From Crocinitomicaceae bacterium (GTDB lineage Bacteria > Bacteroidota > Bacteroidia > Flavobacteriales_G > Salibacteraceae), in NCBI GenBank assembly GCA_002707155.1, contig PAME01000001.1, forward strand, positions 155,601 to 219,600: a stretch of 64,000 nucleotides of DNA. The letters are read 5' to 3'. The notes below the pieces were generated by a model. That model ran no database searches. It was not told the DNA's origin and worked only from the letters and a program-made list of their open reading frames with translations. The stretch's first letter is position 1, and every line of letters begins with the position of its first letter. This document shows, piece by piece, positions 26,123 through 31,438 of this stretch. The translations under genes and the position numbers were made by a program.

Positions 26123-27919
26123 TTAGGTAAACTTACGAAGTGCCTGTAATTGTTTTAAGGTAAGCACCTCTTTCAACTCTTCGTCACTCGCTTCTTTAAT
26201 GCGCTTAAACGAACGGAATTTCTTAAGTAGTTTCTCTTGTGTAATAGAACCTATTCCGTCTATTTCTGTTAGGCCCGACTTTATTGTCCCTTTTGAACGC
26301 TGGTTACGGTGATGTGTAATTCCAAATCGGTGCGCCTCGTTTCTTAAATGCTGAATTAGCTTTAGGCTTTCCGACCTTTTGTCTATATAGAGTGGGTAAG
26401 GATCGCCAGGGAAAAAGATTTCCTCCAATCGTTTGGCAATACCAACAATGACCACTTTTCCCATTAAATCGAGCTTAACCAAGCTTTCTACAGCGGAGCT
26501 CAATTGCCCCTTTCCTCCATCAACTATTATTAACTGAGGGAGTGGCTGCTTCTCATCTAACAATCGTTTGTAGCGACGATAGACTACCTCTTTCATACTC
26601 GCAAAATCATCTGGGCCAACCACTGTTTTGATGTTAAAATGGCGGTAGTCTTTTTTAGCTGGTTTTGCATCTTTAAAAACAACACAAGCCGCAACAGGGA
26701 ATGCTCCTTGAATATTTGAATTGTCAAAACACTCAATATGCGTTGGCAAAACCTTCATTCGAAGGTCTTTTTGGATAGTGCCTAAAATTCGGTTTTTATG
26801 TCGGTCTGGATCTACTTTTTCTTGCTGCTGCTGGCGATCGCGCATGAAGTATTTGACGTTTCTCAAAGACATGTCAATCAATTGCTTTTTGTCTCCTCGA
26901 ATTGGGTTGTGCAATTTGATTTCAGGTATCTCTAATTCCATTGGTATAGAAGTAAAAATTTCCTTTGATGTGCTGTTAAATCGATTACGTATTTCAAAGA
27001 TTACAGAAGATAGAATGTCTTCTTCTGACTCTTCTAATTTCTTTTTTACTTCAACAGTATGCGCCTGAATTATAGCTCCATTGGCCATTTTCATGAAGTT
27101 CACATAGGCATATTTATCATCGCTTAGAATTGAAAACACATCTACATTATTAATGCTCGGATGCACAACTGTTGAGCGCATTTGATAATCTTCAAGCAAT
27201 TGAATTTGTTCTTTTGCCTCTTGAGCATCTTCAAATTTTAAAGCTTCAGCCGAGGCTTGCATAGTCAACTTTAAATCGCGAATCACATCAACAATACTCC
27301 CCTTTAAAATTTTGCGAATGTGGGCTATTCCTTTTTGGTAATCTTCCTCTGATTGGAGACCTTCACAGGGCCCCTCACAGTTCTTTATATGGTATTCAAG
27401 ACAGACTCGAAACTTCTTGGCTTCGATATTTTCCTCGCTTAAATTAAAGTTGCAGGTGCGCAGTTTGTACAACTTGTTTGCAAACTCCAATACCGTGCGC
27501 ATTGTCCTAAACGACGTATAAGGGCCATAATATTCGGACCCATCTTTAATCAACTTTCGGGTATAAAAAACTCGAGGAAATCGTTCGTTTTTAATACAGA
27601 TCCAAGGGTAGGTTTTATCATCGCGCAAAAGCACATTGTAGCGCGGCTTGTACTTTTTTATTAAGGTGTTCTCCAGTATTAGTGCGTCGTATTCCGAATC
27701 GGCTATAATGAATTTTATATCGGCAATTTTACTAACTAAAATTCTGGTTTTTGGGCTGTCTTCATGTTTATTGGAAAAGTAGCTGTTTACACGATTCCTC
27801 AGAATTTTGGCTTTCCCAACATATAAAATTACTCCTTCATTATCAAAATACTGATATATACCGGGCAGTTTAGGTAAACTACTTAGAATATGCTTTAAAT
27901 GAGGAGTAACTACTGACAC
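26123..27919 (-). CDS. uvrC: Excinuclease ABC subunit C
   Basis: Makes both incisions in nucleotide-excision repair with UvrA and UvrB. The N-terminal GIY-YIG nuclease is present (LPGIYQYFDNEGVILYVGKA). A UVR motif that binds UvrB follows (ALKFEDAQEAKEQIQLL), then the RNase H-like 5'-incision domain (IECFDNSNIQG, IIVDGGKGQL). The C-terminal helix-hairpin-helix pair (GLTEIDGIGSITQEKLLKKF) is complete. 598 residues, full length. GTG start at 27919 with a TACTTTTG box 4 nt before it. Confidence 0.97.
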   Translation of the reverse strand: MSVVTPHLKHILSSLPKLPGIYQYFDNEGVILYVGKAKILRNRVNSYFSNKHEDSPKTRILVSKIADIKFIIADSEYDALILENTLIKKYKPRYNVLLRDDKTYPWICIKNERFPRVFYTRKLIKDGSEYYGPYTSFRTMRTVLEFANKLYKLRTCNFNLSEENIEAKKFRVCLEYHIKNCEGPCEGLQSEEDYQKGIAHIRKILKGSIVDVIRDLKLTMQASAEALKFEDAQEAKEQIQLLEDYQMRSTVVHPSINNVDVFSILSDDKYAYVNFMKMANGAIIQAHTVEVKKKLEESEEDILSSVIFEIRNRFNSTSKEIFTSIPMELEIPEIKLHNPIRGDKKQLIDMSLRNVKYFMRDRQQQQEKVDPDRHKNRILGTIQKDLRMKVLPTHIECFDNSNIQGAFPVAACVVFKDAKPAKKDYRHFNIKTVVGPDDFASMKEVVYRRYKRLLDEKQPLPQLIIVDGGKGQLSSAVESLVKLDLMGKVVIVGIAKRLEEIFFPGDPYPLYIDKRSESLKLIQHLRNEAHRFGITHHRNQRSKGTIKSGLTEIDGIGSITQEKLLKKFRSFKRIKEASDEELKEVLTLKQLQALRKFT

Positions 27920-27923
27920 ACTG

Positions 27924-27931
27924 CAAAAGTA
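27924..27931 (-). promoter_or_regulatory. TAnnTTTG -7 box 4 nt before uvrC
   Basis: Minus strand TACTTTTG, then CAGT, then GTG 27919. Exact consensus. Confidence 0.6.
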
Positions 27932-27948
27932 GTGAAGCTATTGGTGAA

Positions 27949-29004
27949 TTAATTGTTCTCTTTTACTTCAGCGCCGAACAAGTTTGGAATGGTAATGATA
28001 AATTTTGTTCCTTGACCTATAATAGAAGTAAGCTCTATATTTCCTTCTAATAAGTCAACCGCTTCCTTTACAATATAAAGACCTATACCGGTTCCATTAC
28101 TGAGGTTGGTTCCTCGATAATAGATGTCAAAGATTTTGGATTGGCGATCTAAGTCAATCCCAATTCCGTTATCCTCCGCAGTCAATTTCAACTCCGATGA
28201 ATTAACATTAGCAAGAATATTTATTTTGTTTTCTTTCTTTTCTCGGTCTTGGTATTTGATGGCATTAGAAAGTAAGTTGTTGAGGATAAAACGCAACCTA
28301 GACTTATCCGAAACAAATTTTTGGTCATTATAAACCTCAAGAGTGTAGTTTATATTGGCTGAATTTTCAAAAAACTGGTGTTCATTCATAACTGTTTTAA
28401 TCAATTGGTTCAGTCTTATGTCTCTCAAATTTATGCCTGTTCTTTTATTGCGATGAAAACTCAACACATCTCTCGCGATTAGCTTCAATTTTTTAGCCGT
28501 GTGCTCTATTAAATCCACATACTCTGCTGAGTTACTATCGTCCATTCTGATTAAGGTGACTAACCCCATTATATTAGAAAGAGGACCAGTAATATCATGC
28601 GCAGTGCTAAATACCAATTTATCTAACTCCGCATACACTTTTTTCAGTTCCTCATTTCTTATCCCAAGAAGGTTCTTTGTTAGGTATATATCAAAAGCAT
28701 TTTCAATTGAATTTCTCAACACCTCTTCGTTCCATGGTTTTGGTAAAAACCGAAAAACACACCCTTTATTAATTGCGTCAACAACAGCAGGCATATCTGC
28801 ATGCCCTGTGAGCATTATCCGGACCGTAAAAGGGAAGTTCTCCTTTACCTTTTCTAAAAATAAAACGCCATTTTCTTCTGGCATTTTATAGTCTGATAGA
28901 ATTACTGGGATATCGTGTAACTCAATTAATTGATAGCCTTCTTTAGAAGTAAGTGCCTTATAAACTTCATAATCTTTACGAAAATTTGCTCGGAATGAGT
29001 GCAA
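27949..29004 (-). CDS. Hybrid response regulator-histidine kinase, 5'-truncated
   Basis: The C-terminal two thirds are a full kinase core: His box VFSTAHDITGPLSNIMGL (phospho-His), N box NLLSNAIKYQ, DNGIGI and GTGIGLYIV. In front is a receiver with the acceptor Asp in VILSDYKMP, TGHAD and FLPKPWN. The receiver begins abruptly at LHSFRANFRKDYEV from a TTG with a TAA just upstream. The first strand and the acidic DDE pocket are missing. The loss is exactly where it abuts the head-to-head regulator at 28995, which lacks the same part. Kinase activity may survive; receiver function should not. Confidence 0.8.
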   Translation of the reverse strand: MHSFRANFRKDYEVYKALTSKEGYQLIELHDIPVILSDYKMPEENGVLFLEKVKENFPFTVRIMLTGHADMPAVVDAINKGCVFRFLPKPWNEEVLRNSIENAFDIYLTKNLLGIRNEELKKVYAELDKLVFSTAHDITGPLSNIMGLVTLIRMDDSNSAEYVDLIEHTAKKLKLIARDVLSFHRNKRTGINLRDIRLNQLIKTVMNEHQFFENSANINYTLEVYNDQKFVSDKSRLRFILNNLLSNAIKYQDREKKENKINILANVNSSELKLTAEDNGIGIDLDRQSKIFDIYYRGTNLSNGTGIGLYIVKEAVDLLEGNIELTSIIGQGTKFIITIPNLFGAEVKENN

Positions 29005-29366
29005 TTAGTGCTGCAGAAGCGCGTGTATTAATGGAAACTAACGACTACGAGGTAATTATATCTGACCAACGAATGCCTGAAACAACTGGGGTAGAGTTTT
29101 TTCAAGAGATAAAGATTACAGACCCTGACCCAGTAAGAATTTTATTGACGGGCTATGCAGACATAACAGCTGTTAAAGCAGCTGTAAATCAAGGAGAAAT
29201 ATATCGTTATCTACAAAAACCGTGGAATGAAATTGAACTTAGTGCCAATATCAAAGCTGCAAGTGAATTATACAGACTAAGAGAGTCAAACGGAGTGCTT
29301 ACACATGAGCTAAAGCGCGTAAATAAGCAAATGGAGTTTTTAGTGAGGCAAAGTTTAGTTTCTTAG
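28995..29366 (+). CDS. Response regulator receiver, 5'-truncated
   Basis: About 124 residues. From ISAAEARVLMETNDYEV on, the receiver is well conserved: acceptor Asp in VIISDQRMPETTG, LLTGYAD and YRYLQKPWNE, then a short coiled tail ending RQSLVS. The first beta strand with the acidic pair and the first helix are absent. The codons before MSAIS in the ORF track are antisense to the neighbouring kinase gene. Compare the opposite gene, cut at nearly the same base. It probably is no longer phosphorylatable. The stop overlaps the convergent membrane-protein gene by 4 bp. Confidence 0.72.
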   Translation: MSAISAAEARVLMETNDYEVIISDQRMPETTGVEFFQEIKITDPDPVRILLTGYADITAVKAAVNQGEIYRYLQKPWNEIELSANIKAASELYRLRESNGVLTHELKRVNKQMEFLVRQSLVS

Positions 29367-29980
29367 CCCAATCCAGCTAATATCGAGAAGAAAATGCATG
29401 TAAAACCGAGCATGCTCCCTGCTACAATTTGACCGTTAGAATGTGCTTCTAATTTTAACCTGGCTGTGCCAATAACACCCCATACCAAAACTAATAATAC
29501 CACCCAAGGTGCCAATTGTGCTCCAAATAAAACTTGAAAGCCAACAAAAGCACCAATTAATCCTCCAATACCCGTCATATGCGCACTAATTTTATACCTC
29601 AGCGTGATAAAAAAAACGGCAAATACAGAAAGGGCCAATCCAAAAAACATATCGGATAACACTCCCGGGAGCGTTAACTTCTTTATCAATAAATAGGTGA
29701 GTAAATAAAAAAATGAAGCCACAGCCATTGGAATCACCCGTTCCTTCCTGTCTATTAATTGTAGAGAGCTAATCGCGTTTCGATAGCGCATAATGAGCAC
29801 TATAAGAGCTGGAAATAGGTAGGTGTTTAAGAAGATAATCAGGTAGAGAAAATTCTTCGTTGTTGCTCCAATCGAATATTTTAAATAGTTGTCTCCCTGA
29901 AGCAATAAAAACAAACCCAAAGTTGGCATTACCCCAGGATGAAAAGCATAAGAGAGTATTTGGGCGAGCTGCCTATTCAT
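29363..29980 (-). CDS. PAP2-like membrane protein
   Basis: 205 residues with about six hydrophobic helices. Two segments recall the PAP2 phosphatase active site: SAHMTGIGG for the PSGH loop and RLKLEAHSNGQIVAG for the SRxxxxxHxxxD loop. The first Ser is replaced and the last Asp is Gln, so catalysis is doubtful or altered. If active it would remove phosphate from a lipid such as undecaprenyl-PP. It ends 1 bp before the rpoN coding end and probably is co-transcribed with it. Confidence 0.68.
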   Translation of the reverse strand: MNRQLAQILSYAFHPGVMPTLGLFLLLQGDNYLKYSIGATTKNFLYLIIFLNTYLFPALIVLIMRYRNAISSLQLIDRKERVIPMAVASFFYLLTYLLIKKLTLPGVLSDMFFGLALSVFAVFFITLRYKISAHMTGIGGLIGAFVGFQVLFGAQLAPWVVLLVLVWGVIGTARLKLEAHSNGQIVAGSMLGFTCIFFSILAGLG

Positions 29981-31438
29981 TTATATTTCTTTTCGCAACC
30001 TAGCAACCGGAATATTAAGTTGTTCTCGGTATTTTGCAACTGTACGCCTTGCAATATTATAGCCCTTCACCTTCAATAAATCGGTTAACGCTTGATCCGT
30101 TAACGGCTTTTTCTTTTCCTCAACATCAATGGCTTCTTGCAGTATTTTCTTTACCTCTCTAGTGCTTACCTCCTCGCCTTCGGTATTGGTTAACGACTCA
30201 CTAAAAAAGGTTTTTAAGAGAAAAGTTCCGTAAGGCGTTTGAATGTATTTGCTATTCGCTACGCGACTTACTGTTGAAATATCCATTTCAATAATATCTG
30301 CAATGTCCTTCAAAATCATTGGCTTCAATTTGGTTTCGTCTCCACTCAAAAAATACTCTTTTTGAAAATCAAGAATAGTTTCCATGGTATACAATAGCGT
30401 ATTCTGACGTTGTTTGATCGCATCAATAAACCACTTGGCTCCGTCCAGCTTTTGCTTAACAAACATTAAAGCTTCTTTTTTCTTTTTGTCTGGCTTGCCT
30501 TTACTGCTCTGGTATTCCTCAATCATGTTAGCATACTGACGACTTACCTTAAGATCTGGAGCATTTCTTCCATTTAGTCGCAACTCAAACTGACCATCTT
30601 CAATTTCTAACATAAAATCGGGCAAAACAGCCTGACTTGCTTTTCCGTTTGAACTTGAATTCCCTGGTTTTGGGTTCAGCTTCTTAATCTCAACGTCCGC
30701 TTCTTTTAAAGCAAGTTCGTTAATTTCAAGACCTTCCAATATCTTTTTGTAGTGCTTTTTGGTATACGCGTCAAAATAGTCTTTAACTATAGCCTGCGCG
30801 GTTAACAACTCCACAGTGCGCTCTTTTCTTCGTCGCAATTGCAACAACAAGCACTCTTGTAAGGAGCGTGCACCTACTCCCGCCGGCTCAAAGCTTTGAA
30901 TTATCGATAGTAGACGGTTGACGACAGCAACCTCTGTAGTAATGTTTTGTGTAAATGCTAAATCATCTACAATTGCATCAACTTCTCTTCTCAAATATCC
31001 AGACTCATCCAATGATCCAATTAGATGATCGGCAATTAAATACTCGCCTTCGTCTAAGTCCTGCATATCCAGTTGGTCCTCTAATAACTCACTAAAGGTT
31101 TTTCCAAAAGAAATCGGCATTGACTTATCTTCTTCATCAGCGCCGTGATTTCTGGCAGTGTATTTATAGCTTGGTTCGTCATCGCTGTAATCTGAAAAAT
31201 CAAATTCCTTTTCTGCTTCTGATTTTTCTTTTGCTACATCGGTGTATTCGTCTTGTTCTTCGGCATATTCATCTTCATTCGCCTCTCGACCTTCTTCAAG
31301 AGCAGGATTTCTTTCCAACTCCTCCTTTATCCGTGCTTCAATCGCTACGGTAGGTACTTGCAATAATTTCATCAATTGAATCTGTTGAGGACTCAACTTC
31401 TGAAGCATTTTCAGGTTTAATGTTTGTCTTAGTGCCAT
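29981..31438 (-). CDS. rpoN: RNA polymerase sigma-54 factor
   Basis: Alternative sigma factor needing AAA+ activators. Region I is the N-terminal Gln/Leu-rich stretch (LRQTLNLKMLQKLSPQQIQL). Region II is a very acidic linker (EGREANEDEYAEEQDEY). The core-binding and helix-turn-helix part follows (DIADIIEMDISTVSRVANSK). The C-terminal RpoN box is ARRTVAKYREQLNIPVARL, which reads the -24 element. 485 residues, complete. No sigma-54 activator is in the window. Confidence 0.97.
   Translation of the reverse strand: MALRQTLNLKMLQKLSPQQIQLMKLLQVPTVAIEARIKEELERNPALEEGREANEDEYAEEQDEYTDVAKEKSEAEKEFDFSDYSDDEPSYKYTARNHGADEEDKSMPISFGKTFSELLEDQLDMQDLDEGEYLIADHLIGSLDESGYLRREVDAIVDDLAFTQNITTEVAVVNRLLSIIQSFEPAGVGARSLQECLLLQLRRRKERTVELLTAQAIVKDYFDAYTKKHYKKILEGLEINELALKEADVEIKKLNPKPGNSSSNGKASQAVLPDFMLEIEDGQFELRLNGRNAPDLKVSRQYANMIEEYQSSKGKPDKKKKEALMFVKQKLDGAKWFIDAIKQRQNTLLYTMETILDFQKEYFLSGDETKLKPMILKDIADIIEMDISTVSRVANSKYIQTPYGTFLLKTFFSESLTNTEGEEVSTREVKKILQEAIDVEEKKKPLTDQALTDLLKVKGYNIARRTVAKYREQLNIPVARLRKEI

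Follow-up and report, generated by a model that had tools for sequence, protein, structure and literature searches.

Head-to-head truncation of two receiver genes in a marine Bacteroidota genome as the probable scar of a deletion that removed a sensory module

Two truncated receiver genes at a single junction

The window analyzed here is a 64,000-nucleotide stretch of DNA from a Crocinitomicaceae bacterium (G000:C7:155601-219600), taken from a 3.04 Mb genome in 26 contigs with an estimated completeness of 99.93% and an estimated contamination of 6.58%, which looks like a metagenome-assembled genome. No N occurs in the window. Between uvrC and a gene for a PAP2-like membrane protein, beyond which lies rpoN, two receiver-domain genes of opposite orientation meet at their 5' ends (Table 1). 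The original prediction, made from the sequence alone, described them as two regulators truncated at one junction near 29000, both lacking the first strand and acidic pocket of the receiver; open reading frames, Pfam profiles and orthologue alignments bear this description out.

The minus-strand gene encodes a receiver-histidine kinase (HK) in which a receiver is followed by HisKA and HATPase_c domains, both of which are kept, within an open frame of 351 codons. The Response_reg match begins at profile position 21, and approximately the first 22 residues of the receiver, including strand 1 and the Asp-Asp pocket, are missing. As had also been predicted, the frame starts at a TTG (29004-29002) with an in-frame TAA directly before it, and the alignments identify this TTG as the ancestral internal Leu codon of an NNL motif. 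The plus-strand gene is a stand-alone receiver whose Response_reg match begins at profile position 28 and which lacks approximately its first 38 residues, among them again strand 1 and the Asp-Asp pocket, while retaining the SDQRMP phospho-acceptor, LTGYAD, KPW and a conserved EFLxRQ tail. Its frame is open back to a GTG at 28953, the homologous part begins at approximately 29001, and the ATG at 28995 (MSAISAAEAR) is antisense of the kinase gene and present only by chance. Among the PF00072 residues, the Asp pair is absent from both remnants and the phospho-acceptor Asp, Thr/Ser and Lys are kept in both. Homologues with equally short N-termini were looked for; the aligned orthologues of the kinase (n=15) and of the receiver (n=17) are all full-length and keep the Asp-Asp N-terminus, which is missing only in the window copies.

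Table 1. Features at the junction in the window and at the related loci compared with it
Feature	Position	Strand	Remarks
uvrC, left flank	26123..27919	-	adjoins the kinase also in G001, G002, G003, G005, G008 and G014
Receiver-histidine kinase remnant	27949..29004	-	ORF, Pfam domains, orthologue alignment
Stand-alone receiver remnant	28995..29366	+	ORF, Pfam, orthologue alignment
Proposed deletion junction, TGCAA	29000..29004	.	free of N, without a longer repeat
PAP2-like membrane protein, right flank	29363..29980	-	convergent with the receiver remnant
rpoN (sigma-54), right flank	29981..31438	-	collinear in same-genus relatives
Chimeric 369-aa ORF of G023	L105:3171-4280 (G023:C22)		read as an internal module deletion
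Conserved Bacteroidia module	L051:2321-8805 (G001), L052, L053, L054, L057-L061, L111-L113; L120-L144 in other families

An interval present in relatives and absent from the window genome

Full-length orthologues of both genes occur in genomes of the same genus and of the same family. In G001 and G003 (same genus) and in G005, G008 and G014 (family), these orthologues are divergent, with 4-5 kb separating them, and are flanked by uvrC and the PAP2-like gene as in the window. The order and orientation of the flanks are kept in the window, which is collinear with G001 on both sides save for small differences in gene content, and even the 4-bp overlap between the ends of the PAP2-like gene and the receiver remnant is as in G001-G003. 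In the sister genome G002, contigs break inside the same interval. Read from the kinase side, the interval of G001 encodes a 7TMR-DISM HK of 683 aa, then a degenerate second copy of the acyltransferase, and after it a ThiF-like protein of 353 aa and an acyltransferase-like protein of 236 aa. Relative to G001 the window has lost approximately 5.06 kb, including 22 kinase codons and 38 receiver codons, and relative to G003 approximately 4.2 kb.

The missing genes were sought throughout the window genome. The ThiF-like and acyltransferase-like proteins match nothing in it at E<=10; as a positive control, these queries were run on 35 family genomes and match 16 and 17 of them, respectively. The DISM kinase has no orthologue there, its best match reaching 29% identity over the kinase part, and the missing N-terminus of the receiver was found nowhere else in the genome by a search that had its own positive control. 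With the whole interval as a DNA query, only the kinase remnant (77 bp) matches in the window genome, and G002 and G003 match broadly.

The sequence across the junction is TGAGTGCAATTAG. There is one junction only, as both missing 5' ends belong to the same absent interval and not to two nearby cuts. The bases common to both ancestral flanks are TGCAA, with a true overlap of 1-5 bp, according to which ancestral codon is assumed at one site; the flanks were reconstructed from relatives. A shared run of at least five bases is expected in 0.6% of random joins of this composition, and microhomology at the join is suggested, not proven, by these bases. A repeat-driven join was considered and rejected, the self-similarity of the junction region within the genome being only at chance level. 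The breakpoints fall at non-corresponding receiver positions, Leu23 of the kinase and Ala39 of the receiver (G001 numbering), and thus homology between the two genes did not guide the event.

Origin of the junction and state of the remnants

We read the junction as the scar of one deletion of approximately 4.2-5.1 kb in this lineage, with a probability of roughly 0.8. The deletion would have taken the divergent promoter region and the 5' ends of both receiver genes, together with the intervening 7TMR-DISM HK, a FeeM/AHL-synthase-like acyltransferase and a ThiF-like adenylating enzyme, and end-joining or microhomology (up to 5 bp), rather than recombination between repeats, would have reunited the ends. 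As the intervening genes and the receiver 5' end are absent from the genome, an inversion is excluded within the assembly, and the simplest reading is a deletion. The earlier statement that no shared promoter region is left agrees with this comparison, in which the divergent promoter region lies within the missing interval. With its single join, several kilobases lost, few shared bases at most and collinear flanks, the locus resembles microhomology-mediated or illegitimate deletions of bacterial chromosomes. It differs from ordinary illegitimate deletions in that both ends fall in homologous, oppositely oriented receiver genes, which is why it looks like a head-to-head truncation. The scar itself would be ordinary and would show that one marine Bacteroidota lineage has lost a sensory module; its interest is that it points to a conserved cluster in which a probable acyl-amino-acid or oxazolone-type biosynthesis pair adjoins a membrane sensor kinase.

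The alternative that survives best, at well under half the likelihood of a deletion, is an assembly artefact in which the assembler merged reads derived from mixed strains or from a chimeric library fragment, the real population carrying the full module. The probable metagenomic origin of the assembly, its level of contamination and the contig breaks of G002 within the same interval all speak for such a join, as does the absence of decay in the remnants, whose intact frames and near-normal conservation would be expected of it as well. However, the junction is free of N and of any repeat of a length that an assembler could bridge, and none of the other contigs of this nearly complete genome carries the missing genes. 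Enrichment of contig breaks inside the module was considered as a sign of strain variation and set aside, since breaks in the interval were observed in 6 of 19 relatives against approximately 5.6 predicted from contig density (hand estimate). We infer that the deletion was present in living cells and was not made by assembly.

The state of the remnants bears on the age of the proposed deletion. Neither remnant has internal stops or frameshifts, and synonymous sites between the window genome and its relatives are near saturation, which together indicate either a deletion that is recent relative to species divergence or an assembly join. In rate tests of the kinase remnant, changes unique to the window genome and changes unique to the relative stood at 21:13 and 25:12 (chi2 1.9 and 4.6), a marginal amino-acid rate excess on the side of the window genome. 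For the receiver remnant the corresponding counts were 6:12 and 5:12, with no significant excess, and the genes neighboring the remnants show no rate excess on the window-genome side. The acidic pocket of a receiver binds metal. With this pocket and the promoter region lost, phosphotransfer through the remnants is unlikely, and both are probably inactive relics.

It is improbable that the short genes are functional as they stand, whether as natural short receivers or as regulators re-purposed after the deletion. Their frames are open, their remaining parts are well conserved and an ATG lies by chance ahead of the receiver remnant, but the Asp-Asp pocket is kept in every orthologue aligned, the promoter region is gone and the conservation is explained by recency. 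Promoter and terminator scans near the join found sites no more numerous than in shuffled sequences (consensus promoter matches), and no claim is therefore made on rewired uvrC transcription. The truncated kinase is closely followed by uvrC on its strand (window 26123-29004), and if uvrC was once co-transcribed with the lost operon, the deletion may have altered its expression in this lineage. The least credible alternative is the inversion that had been proposed beside a deletion, with a junction of reverse polarity elsewhere, for although the two genes are homologous and oppositely oriented, their 5' halves and all intervening genes were searched for and are absent from the genome, no segment is reversed, the flanks keep their order and orientation, and the breakpoints do not correspond; of that earlier pair of proposals only the deletion stands, the 4-5 kb interval of the relatives being absent here.

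Makeup, spread and candidate function of the missing module

The interval missing from the window corresponds to a conserved Bacteroidia module composed of the divergent receiver, a ThiF protein (or a ThiF-nitroreductase fusion, or a methyltransferase), an acyltransferase of FeeM/AHL-synthase fold, a 7TMR-DISM HK and the receiver-kinase. The acyltransferase profile matches 53 of 295 genomes of the class Bacteroidia, spread over 35 of 155 genera, the class name being deduced from named relatives. In 26 acyltransferase loci surveyed, almost all of them outside the family of the window genome, a DISM kinase was found within approximately 1.5 kb in 22, ThiF in 18, a receiver in 11 and a methyltransferase in three. 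ThiF continues into a further C-terminal region in ten of these loci, and the six extended proteins that were scanned all match the Rv1355c profile to positions 700-718 of 722, five of them also matching the PF00881 nitroreductase domain. The ThiF-like protein of G001 matches NF005901 (Rv1355c family) with 387 bits (E 1e-115), below the cut-off of 476 and through the ThiF half only (36-339 of 722), and domain scans of this protein found no flavin-dependent oxidase/nitroreductase domain.

No Pfam or NCBIfam family matches the acyltransferase-like protein, and its profile has no meaningful sequence match among PDB entries. The top Foldseek matches of its AlphaFold model (pLDDT 82, built on six sequences) include FeeM, MesI and BjaI, with E-values of 5e-7 to 1e-6 and TM-scores of 0.5-0.6, general GNAT enzymes scoring nearly as well. 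The predicted fold resembles that of FeeM/LuxI-type synthases (FeeM 2g0b, MesI 6wns, BjaI 5w8g, LasI 1ro5); in contrast to the LuxI type, the module acyltransferase adjoins a 7TMR-DISM kinase and not LuxR.

The pairing of a predicted GNAT-fold acyltransferase-like protein with a putative Rv1355c-family ThiF is shared with the N-acyl oxazolone clusters OxzAB (Pseudoalteromonas rubra), TyzACB and TrzAS (Rv1356c-Rv1355c) (PMC10404671, PMC12856293). Enzymes of the Rv1355c/TrzS kind make N-acyl oxazolones (PMC10404671, PMC12856293), the physiological role of which in bacteria is stated as unresolved (PMC12856293). The likeness to TrzS extends, in other Bacteroidia, to the fusion of ThiF with a nitroreductase/flavin oxidase-like domain. 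In contrast to these clusters, the ThiF proteins seen in the window's family have approximately 340-390 aa, which leaves no room for the flavin oxidase half, or else a methyltransferase occurs with no ThiF seen, and the module has a 7TMR-DISM kinase, a receiver-kinase and a receiver of its own. Family membership, fold and gene neighborhood together suggest an N-acyl amino acid or an oxazolone-type molecule as the most likely product of the lost operon, made beside a membrane sensor kinase.

A broader and more tentative proposal is that these genes form a widespread, undescribed Bacteroidia signaling system. Here the acyltransferase and ThiF (or ThiF-flavin oxidase or methyltransferase) would make the N-acyl amino acid or oxazolone, the DISM HK would sense it and relay to the receiver-kinase and the divergent receiver, and internal deletions would deprive some strains of the system, possibly making them non-signaling variants. 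A search of open-licence papers found no description of the module. If the proposal is true, a dedicated receptor neighboring an oxazolone-type synthesis pair would make a signaling role testable.

A second loss was found in G023, a genome of the same family and another genus. One ORF of 369 aa there starts with the N-terminal portion of the ThiF-like protein and continues in frame into the C-terminal kinase portion of the receiver-kinase. Nothing is left of the acyltransferase, the DISM kinase or the receiver of the receiver-kinase, and the divergent receiver is intact. This is an independent internal loss within the same module. Other genomes of that genus that were searched also lack the acyltransferase and ThiF genes. 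With two independent deletions the module appears dispensable, and natural comparisons between genomes with and without it would therefore be possible.

Two further features of the module loci concern the synthesis genes themselves. In G001 the degenerate second acyltransferase copy (L051:5644-6081, 145 aa) adjoins the DISM kinase, and the two paralogues stand on either side of the ThiF gene. Some genomes in which ThiF is not seen have a SAM methyltransferase beside the acyltransferase (L053:4847-5614, L054:4467-5237, L060:5275-6042, L137, L140 and L142), which suggests an alternative tailoring of the same product.
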